Assembly: GCF_013177635.1 (NCBI RefSeq)
Contig: NZ_CP030944.1
Span: forward strand, 124,001-188,000
Direction: 5' to 3'
Source of the DNA: Arcobacter aquimarinus
GTDB taxonomy: Bacteria; Campylobacterota; Campylobacteria; Campylobacterales; Arcobacteraceae
DNA length: 64,000 bases
Shown piece by piece: positions 33,554 through 40,965 of the stretch. A program made the translations under genes and the position numbers. Within the stretch, counting starts at the first letter, position 1, and the number at the start of each line of letters is the position of its first letter. The notes under the pieces are model-generated. The model did not search any database. It had not been told where the DNA came from and was given only the letters and a program-made list of their open reading frames with translations.

Positions 33554-34939
33554 TTAATATTTTATAGAGAATTTAGACCATTTTTTAAATTCTGAAGTTA
33601 TTTCAAGTCTAAAATTATGTAAATTGAGTATTGATTGAACAATAAAAAGTCCTAATCCTAAAGAGTTATTCCATCCATTATTTGAAATACGATAGAATTT
33701 TTTATTTATTTTTTCTAATTCTTTTTCTTCTATTCCTATTCCTTTATCTAAAATATCAATAGAATTTAATGAAATATTTATGATTACTTCATGTTCTGAA
33801 TATTTTAAAGCATTTTCTATAAGATTAGTAATTGCTAATGAAATAAGTGTTTCATCAACTTTTAAAATTAAATCTTCACCGGTGATTTCAATTTCTCTAT
33901 TTTTATATTTATCTTTTAAATCACTGACACAATTTTCAATAATTTTTTTCATAGAACAAGGAAGAAGAAGTAACTCTTGTTTTCCTTCTTCAAGTTTTAA
34001 AGTAAGTCTTAATTTATCAATTATTTGAGACATTTTATTTGAGTTAGAGTATATTTTATTTAAAAATTTTATTTTCATAGCTTCAGGAATTTGACTATCA
34101 TTTAAAATTGTTTCACTATATCCTGAAATGATTGCTATTGGATTTTTAAATTCGTGAGAAATTGCAGAAATAATTTCATCTTTTTGTCTATTTGAAATTT
34201 TTAATTTTGCAGTTTGTTTTGCTTTTTGTTTTTCTCTTTTTGAGAGTTTTGTGGCTACTTTGTTTAAAAGTTTTGTTATTTTGTGAAATTCATAAGTGTA
34301 AGTAGATTCTATAGTATTTAAATTTTTCTTATTTGAAAGTTGTGTTAAAAAATCCAAAATAGAATCTGTTTCCTTTTTTATTTGCAAACTGATAAAATAA
34401 GTTGCTAAAAAAGCAATAATTAAAAAAAACGTCATATATATAAAAATTTCAAGGGTTAATTTAACAAAACTATCAGTAATTTTGTTTGTATAATCAGCCA
34501 TTCTAATATAATAAATTTTTTCATTTATAATTATCTTTTTTGCAACATATAACAAATCTTTTTTGATAGTATCTGATTTTCTTGTATCTTTTCCTAATCC
34601 AATATTATTTGCTTCTATTATTTCCGGTCTATTTGCATGATTTTTGATAAATTCTATATCTTTATCACTTTCAGCAATTACGTTACCAACATCATCAATA
34701 ATTGTTATTCTTAGATTTAGTTGTTCATGTAAATCTTTTGTAATAGTTTTTAGATTATTTAAATTTGGTATTTCTTTTAATACAATAGATAAAGAGTCAA
34801 TATTTTGAATAAGATTTTTTTCAATTTGTTTTAGATAAAGATTCTTTGCCCAAAAATATGTAACTAGTGTTAATGTTATTAAAATTGCTATAAATATTGA
34901 GATATAAGTTCTAAGAAATAATTGATGAATTTTTAACAA
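33554..34939 (-). CDS. Sensor histidine kinase, PhoR-like position
   Basis: A 461-residue membrane kinase. Two helices (about 11-30 and 165-190) flank a periplasmic sensor of about 130 residues. The phospho-acceptor box is ISAISHEFKNPIAIISGYSE, the N box NLIENALKYS, and the G boxes DKGIGIEE and LGLGLFIVQS. Its start overlaps the response regulator stop by 7 bases. As the last gene of a pst-phoU cluster it is likely the phosphate sensor (PhoR-type); that is inferred from location. Confidence 0.88.
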   Translation of the reverse strand: MLKIHQLFLRTYISIFIAILITLTLVTYFWAKNLYLKQIEKNLIQNIDSLSIVLKEIPNLNNLKTITKDLHEQLNLRITIIDDVGNVIAESDKDIEFIKNHANRPEIIEANNIGLGKDTRKSDTIKKDLLYVAKKIIINEKIYYIRMADYTNKITDSFVKLTLEIFIYMTFFLIIAFLATYFISLQIKKETDSILDFLTQLSNKKNLNTIESTYTYEFHKITKLLNKVATKLSKREKQKAKQTAKLKISNRQKDEIISAISHEFKNPIAIISGYSETILNDSQIPEAMKIKFLNKIYSNSNKMSQIIDKLRLTLKLEEGKQELLLLPCSMKKIIENCVSDLKDKYKNREIEITGEDLILKVDETLISLAITNLIENALKYSEHEVIINISLNSIDILDKGIGIEEKELEKINKKFYRISNNGWNNSLGLGLFIVQSILNLHNFRLEITSEFKKWSKFSIKY

Positions 34940-35607
34940 AAAATATAACCTTCTCCCCTAATAGAACGAATATACTCTTTTTTCCCATCAGGATCAATTT
35001 TAGCTTTTAATCTTTTAATTGCAACGTTTACAGTTTTCTCTTTTTTCTCAAAAGAGTCTTGCCAAACTTTGTTTAATAGATGTTCTCTAGTCATTAAAAT
35101 ATCTTTATTTTTAATAAATTCTAGAAGTAAATCATGCTCAAGATGAGTTAATTCAATCTCTTTATCCTCAATATAAAATTTTTTATTTGAAGATTTATAT
35201 ACAATATCTTTTACTTTTAAAATATCAATCTCTTTTGAAGTTCTTTTTATTACAGCCTTTACTCTTGCACATAATTCTTTTAAATTAAAAGGTTTTGTAA
35301 TATAATCATCAGCGTGAGAATTAAAACCTTCAAGAATATCTTCATCATTATCTTTTGCAGTTACATAAATAACAGGATTAGTAAATCCTAGTTTTTTAAT
35401 TTCATTTATAAATGCACTTCCTTCGATTCCTGGAAGATTCCTATCCATTAAAATTAAATCTATTTCTTCTTCTTCTAAAACTTTTCTAACATTTTTATCA
35501 ATAGTTAAAAAACCAATAGTTTCATACCCTTCTTTTTGTAAGGTATATTCAAGAAGTTCTAAAATATCTTCTTCATCTTCTATAATTAGAATTAGTTTAT
35601 TATTCAT
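34933..35607 (-). CDS. OmpR/PhoB-family response regulator
   Basis: A 224-residue regulator. The receiver domain has the acidic pocket (IIEDEED), phospho-acceptor D55 in LILMDRNLPG and the lysine in VTAKDND. The C-terminal winged helix contains ELTHLEHDLLLEFIKNKDILMTREHLLNKVW and RGEGYIF. It overlaps both its kinase and the PsiE-like gene. Probably the phosphate regulator acting on the repeats upstream of pstS and pstC. Confidence 0.9.
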   Translation of the reverse strand: MNNKLILIIEDEEDILELLEYTLQKEGYETIGFLTIDKNVRKVLEEEEIDLILMDRNLPGIEGSAFINEIKKLGFTNPVIYVTAKDNDEDILEGFNSHADDYITKPFNLKELCARVKAVIKRTSKEIDILKVKDIVYKSSNKKFYIEDKEIELTHLEHDLLLEFIKNKDILMTREHLLNKVWQDSFEKKEKTVNVAIKRLKAKIDPDGKKEYIRSIRGEGYIFC

Positions 35608-36049
35608 CTTGATTTGACTCTTTAGTAGTTACAACTTTTTTATTTGGTCTTCCATCCTCATATTCAATAACAGTATCTTGAGAAACTTTTATAATACCAG
35701 GTGAAAATTTGATAGCTAGAATCCTAAAAATAAAGAATACAAAAATAACAATCAATAAGAATGTAATATCAAAATAATCCCTTGATTTATTTGTACTTAA
35801 AATAATAACTTCACGGATTAAAAAAATGATAAAAATATCGATGATGTATCTTAATCGAAGAGTTTCTCTTTTTATAAAATCAGAAACCATTTTAACAACT
35901 TCCATAATAACAATAAACTCTAACATAAGAATAATTGCTTTATAGAACTCTTTACCTGAAGCGATTATTCCTATAAAAATAATCGCTGCTGCTAAAACTT
36001 CAAAATTTGAACTGAAGTAATCTTTTATTTTATTAATAGCTTTTTTCAT
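35600..36049 (-). CDS. PsiE-like phosphate-starvation membrane protein
   Basis: A 149-residue protein with four hydrophobic helices: FEVLAAAIIFIGIIASG, ILMLEFIVIMEVVKMV, IDIFIIFLIREVIIL and FLLIVIFVFFIFRILAI. The RETLRLRYIIDIFIIFLIRE segment fits the phosphate-starvation-inducible PsiE family, and the location inside the pst operon agrees. Molecular function of PsiE is unknown. Ends in a soluble Lys/Glu-rich tail. Confidence 0.8.
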   Translation of the reverse strand: MKKAINKIKDYFSSNFEVLAAAIIFIGIIASGKEFYKAIILMLEFIVIMEVVKMVSDFIKRETLRLRYIIDIFIIFLIREVIILSTNKSRDYFDITFLLIVIFVFFIFRILAIKFSPGIIKVSQDTVIEYEDGRPNKKVVTTKESNQDE

Positions 36050-36070: not shown

Positions 36071-36739
36071 TTATGATTGTACTATATCTCCTCCAACTTG
36101 TGCGAACTGTAGAAGATTTGCTATAGAAACAGCTCTATCAGCTATTTTTTCTAATCTTCTTAGGCTACTTAATAAATCAAAATATTCTTTTGATAAATCA
36201 AGATTTTTTGTAATTAATTTTAATATATTTTTTTCAATCATTAAATATAAATCATCAGTTTTACTCTCTTCAACAATAACTCTATGATATTTTTCTTCAA
36301 TATGTTTAGGGTCAATTTCATCAATAATACTCGTTGCAGTTTGTAAAGATAAAAGAGCAGATTTTAATAAAGGAATAGTGTATTCTAAAATCATACTTGT
36401 ATTTAAATCATCACTATAAGATTTTTTGAACATTTTTGCAAAATCTTTTGTATTTGAACCTGTTCTTACAAGTTCATTAGTGATTTTTAAAAATGAAACT
36501 AATTGTCTTAAGTCTTTAGCTTCAGGTGAATATAAAGCTAAAGTTGTAACTATGATATTGTCAATCTCATTTGATTTAAGTAATAATTTTTTTTCTGTTA
36601 TTTCAACGTCTTTTAGATTTTCAATCTTTTTTTCAACTAGTGCTTGTTGACAAATTTCTAAAGATTCAACTACTTCTAAACCAATTTTTTGAATCTCTTC
36701 TTTGATACTTTTTAGTTTTGTTTCATAAGGCTTTAACAT
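36071..36739 (-). CDS. phoU: PhoU-family phosphate regulator
   Basis: A 222-residue all-helical protein with two PhoU repeats (EEIQKIGLEVVESLEICQQAL...; LRQLVSFLKITNELVRTGSNTKDFAKM; SLRRLEKIADRAVSIANLLQF). PhoU couples the Pst transporter to the sensor kinase and down-regulates uptake. Its start overlaps the pstB stop by one base. Confidence 0.92.
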   Translation of the reverse strand: MLKPYETKLKSIKEEIQKIGLEVVESLEICQQALVEKKIENLKDVEITEKKLLLKSNEIDNIIVTTLALYSPEAKDLRQLVSFLKITNELVRTGSNTKDFAKMFKKSYSDDLNTSMILEYTIPLLKSALLSLQTATSIIDEIDPKHIEEKYHRVIVEESKTDDLYLMIEKNILKLITKNLDLSKEYFDLLSSLRRLEKIADRAVSIANLLQFAQVGGDIVQS

Positions 36740-37512
36740 TATCCAAATCTCCCTGTAATATAATCTTCTGTTTTTTTATTGTGTGGATTAACAAAAATAG
36801 TTTCTGTTACATCATATTCTATTAATTTCCCTAAATGGAAAAAGGCTGTATAATCAGCAACTCTTGCTGCTTGTTGCATATTGTGAGTTACTGTAATAAT
36901 TGTGTAATCTTGTTTTAATTCAAGCATTAAAGCTTCAATTTTTTCCGTACTAATTGGGTCAAGTGCAGATGTTGGTTCATCCATTAAAATAACTTCTGGT
37001 TTAATTGCAATTGTTCTTGCAATACAAAGTCTTTGTTGTTGACCTCCTGAAAGTGAAGTTCCAGGTTGATTTAATTTATCTTTTACCTCATTCCAAAGTC
37101 CTGATTTAATTAAAGAAGATTCAACTAATTCATCACACTCTTTACCTTTTCTTACAATTCCATGTTTTAATGGTGCATAAGCTACATTGTCATATATTGA
37201 TTTTGGAAAAGGATTTGGTTGTTGAAAAACCATACCAACTTTTTTTCTAACACTTACTTCATCAACATCTTTATCATAGATATTTTTATTGTCAATTATA
37301 ATTTGACCATCAATTTTTACTATTGGAATTAAATCATTCATTCTATTTATACATCTTAAAAATGTTGATTTACCACAACCAGATGGTCCAATTAATGCTG
37401 TTATTTTATTTTCATATAAACTAGCTGTTATATCAAAAAGAGCTTGATTTGAACCATAAAAAAGGTTTAAGCCTTTTACATCAATTTTTGTTTTATTTTC
37501 ATTATTTATCAT
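36739..37512 (-). CDS. pstB: Phosphate ABC transporter ATPase
   Basis: 257 residues; Walker [20 protein letters not shown], signature [16 protein letters not shown], Walker [16 protein letters not shown], switch [14 protein letters not shown], and the PstB-specific [18 protein letters not shown]. Located between pstA and phoU. Confidence 0.97.
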
Positions 37513-37521
37513 TTTTTTCCC

Positions 37522-38709
37522 TTACCACTTAACTTCAAATCTTTTTCTTAAATAAATTGCTATTGCATTTAATGAAATTAATATTGTTAATAACACCATA
37601 ATTCCAGCAGCAGTTTTTTCTATATACATACCTTCTGGCATTCCCGCCCAAGTAAATAATTGTGCAGGCATAACAGTTGCTGCTTGAGTAACCATTGTTG
37701 GAGCATCAGGAATAAAGGCAATCATACCAATGATGATTAAAGGAGCTGTTTCTCCCATAGCTTGTGCTAAACCAATAATAGAACCTGTTAAAACTCCTGG
37801 AAATGCTAAAGGTAAAACGTGATCTCGTGTCACTTGAATTTTATTTAACCCTAAACCATATCCCGCTTGTCTTATACTATCTGGAACTGCTCTTAGTGCT
37901 GCTCTTGAACTTACAATAATAATTGGTAAAGTCATAAGAGCAAGAGTTAAACCTCCAACTAAAGGTGAACTTCTAGGCATTCCAAAAAGATTAATAAATA
38001 TTGCTAGACCTAAAAGACCGAATAATATTGAAGGAATAGCTGCAAGGTTATTTATGTTTATTTCAATAAATCTTGTAAATTTATTGTCCCCTGCAAACTC
38101 TTCAAGATAAATAGCTGTCATAACTCCAATTGGAAATGCAACAGCCATTGTAATCACTAAAGTTAATATTGAACCAATTACAGCTGAATAAAGTCCTGCA
38201 TATTCAGGAATCTTTGAATCACCGTTTGTAAAGAAAATTGAATTAAATTTTCTTTCAATTAGTCCTTGAGCATTTAATTCTTCAATAAAAGCTATTTCTT
38301 TATCTTTTAGCTTGTAATGGTGACCTTTTAAATACTGATCAACTTGGTCATCTGCTAATACTAAAGTTGTTGTTGTAGTGTTCATTAAAGCTGGATTTTC
38401 TTGAACTAATTTTTGAAGATCTCTTAACCAAGCTCTAGAAACAATATTTCTATACTCTTTTGGTACAGCAAATCTTGTATCTTCTAGAGTTTTTTCGTTG
38501 TATGTAACATCTACTTTTATATAAGCAACATTAAAAGCAGGAATACCTTTACTAATAATATCAAATAAGAAAAATGCTAAAAATGCTATAGAGAAAATTA
38601 ATGAAGTTAATGTAAACTTCTTAAATCTTTTTGCACTAGCATGTCTTGATTTTAAATTCGGATCGTAAAATGGATTATGTTGTTTAGTTTTCTTTTTATT
38701 TTTAATCAT
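37522..38709 (-). CDS. pstA: Phosphate ABC transporter permease PstA, long form
   Basis: A 395-residue permease, longer than the usual 280-300. The extra part is a periplasmic insert of about 110 residues after the first helix (about 55-165: YIKVDVTYNEKTLEDTRFAVPKEY...), matching the DUF3333-containing PstA variant. The membrane domain has the permease EAA-type loop (RQAGYGLGLNKIQVTRDHVLPLAFPGVLTG). Overlaps pstC by 4 bases. Confidence 0.93.
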   Translation of the reverse strand: MIKNKKKTKQHNPFYDPNLKSRHASAKRFKKFTLTSLIFSIAFLAFFLFDIISKGIPAFNVAYIKVDVTYNEKTLEDTRFAVPKEYRNIVSRAWLRDLQKLVQENPALMNTTTTTLVLADDQVDQYLKGHHYKLKDKEIAFIEELNAQGLIERKFNSIFFTNGDSKIPEYAGLYSAVIGSILTLVITMAVAFPIGVMTAIYLEEFAGDNKFTRFIEININNLAAIPSILFGLLGLAIFINLFGMPRSSPLVGGLTLALMTLPIIIVSSRAALRAVPDSIRQAGYGLGLNKIQVTRDHVLPLAFPGVLTGSIIGLAQAMGETAPLIIIGMIAFIPDAPTMVTQAATVMPAQLFTWAGMPEGMYIEKTAAGIMVLLTILISLNAIAIYLRKRFEVKW

Positions 38710-39635
38710 AATGTATTCACTTTATATTTTTCTTTAAATTTTCTAATTAGAGATAATGAAATCATGTTAAGCACTAATGTAACTATAAATAGCACTAACC
38801 CTAAAGCAAATGCTGAAAGTGTTTCAGGTGAATTAAATTCAAAATCTCCAACTAATGAGTTTACAATTGTAACAGTAACGGTAGTCATATCTTCAAGTGG
38901 ATTCCATGAAAGATTTGGTCTTAATCCTGCTGCCATAACAACAATCATAGTTTCTCCTAAGGCTTTAGATAAACCTAGTAATGATGCTGAAATAATTCCT
39001 GGCATAGCTGAAGGTAAAACTATGTTTTTAATTACTTCACCATGCGTCATACCAAGTCCAAATGCTGCTTTTCTTTGACTATCAGGAACTGATTTAATAA
39101 CATCATCTGAAAGCGATGAAATAACTGGGATAATCATAATACCCATTACAATTCCAGAAGCTAAAGCTGAGTTAAATGTAGCTTCAAGACCTACGGTCTC
39201 TGCTGCTTTTACAACTAAAGGAGCAACAGTAATAGCAGCAAAGAATCCATATACAACAGTTGGAATACCCGCTAAAACTTCTAAAATTGGTTTTAAATAA
39301 TCTCTAACAGTAGGACTTGCATATTCACTCATATAAATAGCACTACCAAGTCCAATAGGAATTGCAACACCAAGTGCAATTACAGTAATTACAAATGTCC
39401 CTGCAAAAATTGGTAAAGCACCAAATTGACTACCAATAACTCCTGGTGACCATGTAGTTCCCGTTAGGAAATACCAGAAACTTCTTAATTGGAAAAATTC
39501 TATTGCTTCAAATAAAATAGAAAATAAAATCCCAAAAGTTGTTAAAATAGAGATTGCAGCTGCACTAATCAATGCAAATTTGATTAGTTTTTCATTTAGC
39601 TCTCTTTGTCTTTTTCTTGATTCAAAAGTGCTCAA
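38706..39635 (-). CDS. pstC: Phosphate ABC transporter permease PstC
   Basis: 309 residues with six helices and the permease loop RKAAFGLGMTHGEVIKNIVLPSAMPGI. The gene starts with TTG at 39633-39635, preceded by AAAGG. The 206-base gap between pstS and pstC contains its own regulatory repeat and two stem-loops, so pstC may be transcribed separately from pstS. Confidence 0.94.
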   Translation of the reverse strand: MSTFESRKRQRELNEKLIKFALISAAAISILTTFGILFSILFEAIEFFQLRSFWYFLTGTTWSPGVIGSQFGALPIFAGTFVITVIALGVAIPIGLGSAIYMSEYASPTVRDYLKPILEVLAGIPTVVYGFFAAITVAPLVVKAAETVGLEATFNSALASGIVMGIMIIPVISSLSDDVIKSVPDSQRKAAFGLGMTHGEVIKNIVLPSAMPGIISASLLGLSKALGETMIVVMAAGLRPNLSWNPLEDMTTVTVTIVNSLVGDFEFNSPETLSAFALGLVLFIVTLVLNMISLSLIRKFKEKYKVNTL

Positions 39636-39677
39636 TACTTTAACCTTTGTGTTAAATTTTTTATAATTTTAAATAAA

Positions 39678-39701
39678 ATTGATTACATCATGGTTACATA
39701 T
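39678..39701 (-). promoter_or_regulatory. Pho-box-like direct repeat upstream of pstC
   Basis: On the + strand ATTGATTACA-TCA-TGGTTAC, containing TGATTAC and TGGTTAC in the same orientation 11 bases apart, as expected for a PhoB/OmpR-type dimer. It starts 43 bases upstream of pstC. The same sequence stands 44 bases upstream of pstS. Confidence 0.65.
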
Positions 39702-39735
39702 AAAATGAGACAGGGAAGTTAGATATATAAATTTC

Positions 39736-39787
39736 AGTTTTAAGTTTTTATCTCTTTGTTCGCGTTAACAGATAAAAACTTAAAACT
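39736..39787. repeat. 18-base perfect inverted repeat between pstS and pstC
   Basis: AGTTTTAAGTTTTTATCT (39736-39753) and AGATAAAAACTTAAAACT (39770-39787) with a 16-base loop containing TTCGCGTTAAC. The stem is longer than a usual terminator and may act as a transcription attenuator, RNA processing site or protector of the pstS message. Confidence 0.75.
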
Positions 39788-39797
39788 AAAATTGAAC

Positions 39798-39832
39798 AAA
39801 TAAAGAGAAGGCAAGCCATCCTCTCTTTATTT
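39798..39832 (-). terminator. Terminator-like stem-loop just after pstS
   Basis: AAATAAAGAGA (39798-39808) pairs with TCTCTTTATTT (39822-39832), extended by GG/CC pairs inside; it lies 10 bases after the pstS stop. Confidence 0.7.
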
Positions 39833-39841
39833 AAATTTTAA

Positions 39842-40897
39842 TTAATGTTTTAATTGCTCAATAGTTAATTTTTCATTATTCATAACTTTAGTTCTTGCAA
39901 TTTCTCTTGTTTTGTCATCTAAAGTAATTAATCCGATTTCTCCTAAGATTCCATCTTTACCAATCATTTTTTCAGACATAAATAAATTTGTAAATTCTTT
40001 TAAAGCAGGCACTTCTTTATTGTGTGCATTTTTGATATAAAAATACATAGATCTAGCAACTGGATATTTCCCTGTTGAAATAGTATCAGCTGTTGGAGCT
40101 ATACTATCAATTGTAATTCCCATAACTTTATCTTTATTTTCTTCTAAAAATGAATATCCAAAGATACCAATTGCAGCTTCATTTTTAGTAAGTTTTTGAA
40201 CGATTAAGTTATCATTTTCACCTGATTCTACATAAGCTCCATCAGTTCTAATAACAGAATAAGCTTTATATTTTTTATTCGCTTTTTCATCTGCTTTATA
40301 TAAATTAGTATAAACTGGCATTTTTTCAAATACAGATTGTAAAACTAACTCTTCAAATGAGTCTCTTGTTCCTGAAGATTTTGGAGGACCATAAACAGTA
40401 ATTTCTCTATTTGGTAATGATGCATCAATGTCTGACCATTTTTTATATGGATTTTTAATTAATGTTTTTCCATCAGCACTTGGTACTTCTTCTGCTACAG
40501 CTAAAGCTAATTGTGCTTTTGTAACATTAAATCCAGCAACTTTTGCAGATTGTGCAATAGCAATTCCATCAAATCCAATTAATGCTTCAGTTATATCTTT
40601 AACACCATTTTCTTCACACATTTTTAATTCTTTATCTTTCATTCTTCTTGAAGCATTTGTAATATCAGGCGTATTTAAATCAACACCAGCACAAAATAGT
40701 TTCATTCCTCCACCTGTTCCTGTTGATTCTACAACTGGAGTTGGGAATTTTGTAGTTGCACCAAACTCTTCAGCTACAGAAGATGAAAAAGGGTAAACAG
40801 TTGATGAACCTACGATTTTGATTTGTTCTCTTGCAGTTAAAGTTGTTGCTAATAAAGCACTTGCAATTAAGGCCATTGATGTTTTTTTGAATGTCAT
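39842..40897 (-). CDS. pstS: Phosphate-binding periplasmic protein
   Basis: A 351-residue phosphate-binding protein with a signal peptide (MTFKKTSMALIASALLATTLTA). The phosphate-binding segments are IVGSSTVYPFSSSVAEEFG, STGTGGGMKLFCAG, NASRRMKDKE and GPPKSSGTRDSFEELV. An ATCGGAGA ribosome site precedes the ATG. It is the first gene of the pst cluster, with a candidate Pho box at 40941-40965. Confidence 0.96.
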   Translation of the reverse strand: MTFKKTSMALIASALLATTLTAREQIKIVGSSTVYPFSSSVAEEFGATTKFPTPVVESTGTGGGMKLFCAGVDLNTPDITNASRRMKDKELKMCEENGVKDITEALIGFDGIAIAQSAKVAGFNVTKAQLALAVAEEVPSADGKTLIKNPYKKWSDIDASLPNREITVYGPPKSSGTRDSFEELVLQSVFEKMPVYTNLYKADEKANKKYKAYSVIRTDGAYVESGENDNLIVQKLTKNEAAIGIFGYSFLEENKDKVMGITIDSIAPTADTISTGKYPVARSMYFYIKNAHNKEVPALKEFTNLFMSEKMIGKDGILGEIGLITLDDKTREIARTKVMNNEKLTIEQLKH

Positions 40898-40940
40898 TAT
40901 TTTCTCCGATAATTTTATTTACCGTGAAAGTTTAATAACT

Positions 40941-40965
40941 ATTGATTACAATTTGGTTACTATAG
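40941..40965 (-). promoter_or_regulatory. Pho-box-like direct repeat upstream of pstS
   Basis: On the + strand ATTGATTACA-ATT-TGGTTAC-TATAG. TGATTAC and TGGTTAC are repeated 11 bases apart; a weaker third unit (TTAATAACTAT) precedes them in phase. 17 of the 20 bases of the core match the copy before pstC, at almost the same distance from the start codon. Confidence 0.65.

Follow-up and report, generated by a model that had tools for sequence, protein, structure and literature searches.

Paired variant Pho boxes before pstS and pstC point to separate promoters and to a wider predicted phosphate regulon in Arcobacteraceae

In the stretch of 64,000 nucleotides analysed here (the window, G000:C1:124001-188000 of a 2.52-Mb Aliarcobacter-like genome, with Aliarcobacter loci as its nearest named matches), two variant Pho boxes stand in front of the phosphate uptake genes pstS and pstC. 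We propose, with a probability of about 0.87, that one PhosR-like regulator would use them to switch pstS and the genes from pstC onward separately, and that the same regulator would also control genes of lipid and c-di-GMP metabolism. The observed basis of this proposal is the sequence of the two sites, their position, their conservation and their dependence on gene arrangement.

The initial annotation had drawn attention to two 20-mers, ATTGATTACAATTTGGTTAC at 40941-40960 and ATTGATTACATCATGGTTAC at 39678-39697, which are indeed identical at 17 of 20 positions, and to a TGATTAC/TGGTTAC repeat within them, whose 11-base period is real at both sites. The distance to the start codon that it gave, 43-44 bases, holds for pstS (43 bases; ATG at 40897) and is about one base too long for pstC (42 bases; TTG at 39635). 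Since both genes are encoded on the minus strand, the sites are to be read as the reverse complements GTAACCAAATTGTAATCA (40943-40960) and GTAACCATGATGTAATCA (39680-39697). On the coding strand, both are of the type GTAACCA-N4-GTAATCA, with GTAACCA/GTAATCA half-sites 11 bp apart, and a -10-like hexamer follows after a spacer of exactly 8 bases: TAAACT (40929-40934) for pstS and TAAAAT (39666-39671) for pstC. The putative pstS promoter thus delimited spans 40929-40960 and the putative second promoter, that of pstC, 39666-39697, both on the minus strand. Pairs of ordinary sigma-70 -35 and -10 elements were not found above the level of shuffled sequences at either site.

The genes concerned form a cluster on the minus strand. 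An open reading frame at 39842-40897 encodes the phosphate-binding protein PstS (Pfam PBP_like_2; the NCBIfam PstS-family model scores below its cutoff). It is followed by pstC with a TTG start (38706-39635; TIGR02138, 281.7 bits), pstA (37522-38709; TIGR00974, 219.4 bits) and pstB (36739-37512; TIGR00972, 396.8 bits), all above cutoff, by phoU (36071-36739; Pfam PhoU, with the NCBIfam PhoU model below cutoff) and by a psiE-like phosphate-starvation gene (35600-36049; Pfam PsiE, 29.3 bits, above cutoff). The response regulator that the initial annotation had placed in the cluster is present at 34933-35607, behind these genes and before the gene of a sensor kinase (33554-34939), and is the proposed reader of both boxes. 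It is an OmpR/PhoB-family protein with Response_reg and Trans_reg_C domains, whose best NCBIfam model is PhoB (TIGR02154) with 170.7 bits, below the curated cutoff of 296.2, and we therefore file it as PhosR-like and not as PhoB. The kinase, termed PhosS-like here, combines HisKA and HATPase domains with a single-Cache-like sensor; a domain search found no PAS domain in it, and its best NCBIfam model, PhoR, reaches 130.4 bits against a curated cutoff of 334.2. The pair thus differs from E. coli PhoB-PhoR in the sub-cutoff score of its regulator and in the sensor type of its kinase.

Comparison with about 100 related genomes indicates how the two boxes depend on the arrangement of the genes. 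The pstS box is kept throughout the examined Arcobacteraceae, at -55 to -65. Many family loci carry a gene with EAL, CBS and GGDEF domains between pstS and pstC, and all 57 loci of this kind have a pstC box, at -59 to -64 in 56 of them and at -83 in one. Where the EAL gene is absent, the box is found in 8 of 10 loci with a pstS-pstC gap of at least 100 nt and in none of the six in which the gap is below 100 nt and the genes nearly abut. Over all loci in which pstC is separated from pstS, its box lies at -57 to -64, with the one exception at -83. In the two wide-gap loci without a pstC box, L212 and L213, the pst genes have diverged (56-57% identity in pstS and 63% in pstC). That the pstC box tracks the separation of the two genes is the pattern expected of a promoter that restarts transcription. 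The proposal of the initial annotation, a Pho-box-like operator before both genes that gives pstC a promoter of its own, is hence the best-supported reading, with a pstS box at fixed distance and a pstC box that follows gene separation. Judged by its distribution, the duplicated box is an old, family-wide feature, ancestral in Arcobacteraceae and not peculiar to this genome.

An origin of the two repeats by chance or codon constraint has a negligible probability, and we regard this explanation as already refuted by conservation. It could draw on the loosely defined motif, as an 18-mer with three mismatches allowed occurs five times in the window against 2.64 expected and is not rarer than chance. 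However, the full 32-base pattern of box and -10 element, GTAAYCANNNTGTAAYCA-N8-TANANT, gave two matches in the window and none in 100 dinucleotide shuffles, the same number of matches across the 2.52-Mb genome, and 37 matches over 41 genomes against none for the reversed-pattern control; both sites, moreover, are intergenic and conserved in position. The box alone occurs genome-wide with zero mismatches only at the pstS and pstC sites. A scoring matrix built from 35 pstS sites in Arcobacteraceae and neighbours, a set that includes pstS sites and excludes the pstC, EAL, olsF and phosphoesterase sites, ranked the pstS site top in the window (42.3) and the pstC site second (25.9), the next best scoring 3.9. 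In 60 Mb of simulated background of the same dinucleotide make-up, no score of at least 20 was seen and a score of 15 arose 0.083 times per Mb. The genome scan itself was made by patterns rather than with the full matrix, so that weak regulon members could be missed. Genome-wide, sites with two mismatches were not commoner than those of the reversed control (14 vs 16; 27 vs 24), and only intergenic sites with conservation support were therefore retained. A third near-match of the box with one mismatch (G000:C1:1487624) lies within a coding region and was rejected, and the remaining intergenic candidates score low (-0.1 for a pyruvate-kinase-like and 7.9 for a PIN-domain-like gene). Occurrence of the motif widely at non-phosphate genes had been named at the outset as the observation that would speak against a Pho operator; in the scan, strong intergenic sites stood only before phosphate-type genes.

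Two further explanations accept the sites and question their present role or their reader. The pstC site could be a decaying relic from the time when the EAL gene separated pstS and pstC, with pstC now read through from pstS. This would agree with the loss of the EAL gene from the gap here and in the sister genome G019, while most of the genus has it there, with the persistence of the EAL leader hairpin in the gap, and with the lower score of the pstC site compared with the pstS site. We nevertheless consider it unlikely, as the site is intact in this genome and in G019 (26.6) as well as in other EAL-less loci with gaps of at least 137 nt (L037, L040, L048, L052, L054 and L172), and is missing only where pstC nearly abuts pstS; the gap, and not the EAL gene, therefore predicts the site. 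Less probable still is binding of the repeats by an OmpR-family regulator other than the one encoded at 34933-35607. Direct repeats of about 10-11 bp are common among regulators of this family, the assignment to 34933-35607 comes from gene neighbourhood, and the methylotroph-type gammaproteobacterial loci L044 and L046, with a similar PstC, have a TGTCA-type repeat upstream of pstS. However, across the family this regulator is found together with the box, the pst genes and phoU, and L220 and L222, which are without pstS and pstCAB, keep the box before a cluster of the EAL gene, phoU, psiE and the regulator. The reader of both boxes is thus most likely the PhosR-like regulator encoded in the cluster, as far as binding can be predicted from gene order and conservation.

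Two groups of loci show other fates of the cluster. In L220, L222, L225 and L228 (genomes G048, G047, G095 and G097), some or all pst transporter genes are lost while the EAL gene, phoU, psiE and the PhosR-like regulator are kept; the box is retained in L220, L222 and L225, and none was found in L228. In L044, L045, L046, L050 and L055, titled as methylotroph or symbiont gammaproteobacteria, PstC is 77-80% identical to that of the window, and the TGTCA-type repeat upstream of pstS is seen in L050 and L055 as well as in L044 and L046. This suggests that the transporter genes were transferred and that the box was adapted to the regulator present locally.

The textbook E. coli Pho box is CTGTCATAAAACTGTCAT, and in the phoA layout 10 nt separate the equivalent half-site from the -10 element. 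The sites described here align with this box position by position, in the same orientation and register (TGTAAYC here, TGTCATA there), and share with the textbook layout the location upstream of pstS and the 10-nt distance to the -10 element. In contrast, the core is TGTAA throughout the family where E. coli has TGTCA, and a second box stands before pstC. The claim of the initial annotation that the sequence differs from the E. coli Pho box is therefore correct for the core, whereas the sites are not far off in architecture. Two direct half-sites 11 bp apart are present at both sites and conserved in the family, and both boxes occupy the -35 position of phosphate-starvation genes, pstS and pstC, with a fixed spacing to the -10 element (8 nt after the 7-mer). 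The E. coli-type box consists of two 11-nt direct repeats, each with seven better-conserved and four less-conserved bases, and its consensus varies between species (PMC4415409). On these sequence features, we class the sites as a variant Pho box rather than as a different kind of site.

A two-component system of the same bacterial order, PhosS-PhosR (Cj0889-Cj0890) of Campylobacter jejuni, offers a further comparison. Its pho box, reportedly described by Wosten et al. in 2006, is said to read GTTTCNAAAANGTTTC with a repeat of about 11 bp, as here, against GTAAC/GTAAT in the present sites, a comparison that we treat as a lead. When phosphate is low, PhosS-PhosR activates the genes for its uptake (PMC9449129, PMC3197622), and the regulator and kinase of the window appear to fit this system.

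Beyond the pst cluster, the pattern scans of the genome yielded three further intergenic sites with conserved context, before olsF, before a phosphoesterase-patatin gene pair and before the EAL gene. The olsF site (G000:C1:471145, 471145-471176; score 15.2) precedes a gene at L256:1914-3626 whose product passes the NCBIfam model NF052615 for the bifunctional ornithine lipid synthase OlsF (809.3 bits, cutoff 620, residues 1-568). Boxes scoring at least 10 precede olsF in 28 of 33 loci, and in the family olsF-search set they lie at -49 to -57, L270 being a low-scoring outlier. The second of these sites (G000:C1:2433509, 2433509-2433540; score 20.6) stands before a calcineurin-like phosphoesterase (metallophosphoesterase) gene followed by a patatin-type lipase gene (L257:2048-3545). 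Here, 22 of 32 loci have boxes scoring at least 10, and the position is -38 or -39 in every family locus (about 30 species). The phosphoesterase belongs to the calcineurin-like fold family by Pfam, with weak similarity to LpxH. At the -38 site, the -10 box ends six bases before the ATG, and the mRNA may therefore be leaderless. Chance would produce a score of 15 about 0.4 times per genome, and the case for the olsF and EAL sites of this genome is therefore made by conservation and not by score. We conclude that the targets of this regulator very probably include olsF, the metallophosphoesterase-patatin pair and the relocated EAL-CBS-GGDEF gene, and the boxes suggest the outline of a Pho regulon covering phosphate uptake, lipid replacement and c-di-GMP turnover. 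In Vibrio cholerae, olsF is under PhoB control, and its product forms ornithine lipid, which lacks phosphorus, when phosphate is low (PMC12186959), comparable to olsF behind a Pho-like box here. The plcP clusters of marine bacteria likewise carry Pho boxes (PMC4796936); the phosphoesterase described here also lies behind a box, but is followed by a patatin gene and is at most a putative PlcP. No description of such a regulon in Arcobacter was found in the literature searched.

The EAL-CBS-GGDEF gene occurs as one copy in 73 of 104 Arcobacteraceae genomes, mostly between pstS and pstC (e.g. L031:4204-5934), a position in which no copy is preceded by a separate box. In this genome and in G019, it is found about 1.3 Mb from the pstS-pstC gap, with a box at -82; in this genome the gene lies at L164:3731-5467 (G000:C1:1506230 region) and the box at G000:C1:1506148, with a score of 15.1. 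Other EAL genes outside pst have boxes scoring 13.1 (G088), 11.4 (G065) and 8.8 (G061), and no box was found at those of G118, G119 and G032. In L212, L213, L220 and L222, the EAL gene directly follows prfA and the box lies at -153 to -174; this box is best read as the old pstS box, presumably kept after the loss of pstS. Relocation of the genus's own EAL gene within this genome is not favoured, since the tree groups this copy with the genera g33 and g19 (100/98 support), away from its own genus. A foreign copy was thus probably acquired in place of the resident one, which was lost. The protein keeps the motifs VEALLRN, DDFG, IKLD and AEGVET, and GGDDF replaces GGDEF; with intact EAL motifs and this altered cyclase motif, we expect a phosphodiesterase acting like RapA. 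RapA of Pseudomonas fluorescens is a Pho-regulated c-di-GMP phosphodiesterase, and low phosphate depletes c-di-GMP and releases the biofilm (PMC3032545). Both genes would thus encode a c-di-GMP phosphodiesterase under a Pho box, in the present case as predicted from motifs, but the domain order here is EAL-CBS-GGDEF and the gene usually lies inside the pst operon.

Two hairpins on the minus strand fill the space between pstS and the pstC box. They came from folding, as a terminator scan with a G+C rule found none, and the fold of the gap containing both has an energy of -39.7 kcal/mol (z -8.6). Just after pstS lies a terminator-like hairpin (39797-39833) with a 14-bp stem and no long T-run behind it here; most relatives have a similar hairpin after pstS. 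The second is a long covarying hairpin (39730-39793) with a 24-bp outer stem and the conserved tip CUGUUnnCGCGAACnAAG, of which GCGAA is almost invariant. It has relatives in 42 loci (e.g. L031:4116-4185, L214:5159-5228 and L254:2911-2980). In an alignment of 39 sequences, each of the 21 modelled pairs has changed on both sides, and 92.9% of cells are paired against 70.2% after shuffling and 46-47% when the partner is slid by one base. The covariation score of 0.680 compares with 0.257 for shuffled alignments and was reached in none of 500 shuffles. An Rfam search that included the c-di-GMP riboswitches placed the hairpin in no family at cutoff, the best hits being sub-threshold microRNA models. 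A dispersed repeat was rejected, as the genome contains the exact tip sequence only once and the covariance model, searched against the DNA examined, matches this locus only, apart from the hairpin's own complement.

In relatives, the long hairpin is usually part of the EAL-CBS-GGDEF leader, and it accompanies this gene in rearranged loci. A strict tie to the gene is not fully upheld, as the hairpin persists, still paired, between pstS and pstC without an EAL gene in G000, G019 and L037. The G000 and G019 copies differ by three or more compensatory changes (pairs 12-68, 14-66 and 15-65 of alignment A1), which suggests that the hairpin may still work there. It is most likely a cis-acting control or processing element, an assignment to which we give even odds. 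We are equally divided on a more specific proposal, in which it would represent a new Arcobacteraceae RNA class, with a stem maintained by compensatory changes and an invariant GCGAA tip, that adjusts the c-di-GMP gene, and in this genome also pstS/pstC, behind a Pho-box promoter, as part of a regulon tying together phosphate uptake, ornithine-lipid replacement and c-di-GMP turnover. Intergenic regions of Arcobacter sp. L were examined by Stav et al., and most remaining motifs were left unnamed (PMC6429828), so that the hairpin may have been seen before.

Based on these observations, we propose the following hypothetical mechanism, in which binding, low-phosphate induction and independent levels are what we infer from sequence and gene arrangement. 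Each box, made of two TGTAA-type half-sites 11 bp apart, would replace the -35 element 10 bp upstream of the -10 element, and a phosphorylated dimer of the PhosR-like regulator would bind it head to tail and recruit RNA polymerase at low phosphate. The first box would fire pstS, whose transcript would then meet the terminator-like hairpin, and the second would restart transcription for pstC-pstA-pstB-phoU-psiE-phosR-phosS. The binding protein on the one hand, and the membrane machinery with the regulator on the other, would thereby obey one inducing signal at independent levels. The ancestral layout would have held the EAL-CBS-GGDEF gene in the pstS-pstC gap, and this lineage would have lost the gene and kept the second promoter.

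Some Arcobacteraceae are found in water and have been associated with disease in humans and animals. Knowledge of Pho control is extensive for E. coli and thin for Campylobacterota, and a defined box, checked against family-wide gene rearrangements, provides a concrete, testable phosphate regulon for this family. The relocated EAL gene, with a box at its new location, amounts to a natural experiment that supports functional control, and the covarying hairpin may represent a new RNA element. The regulon predicts that, on phosphate exhaustion, these bacteria would swap phospholipids for ornithine lipids and alter their c-di-GMP.
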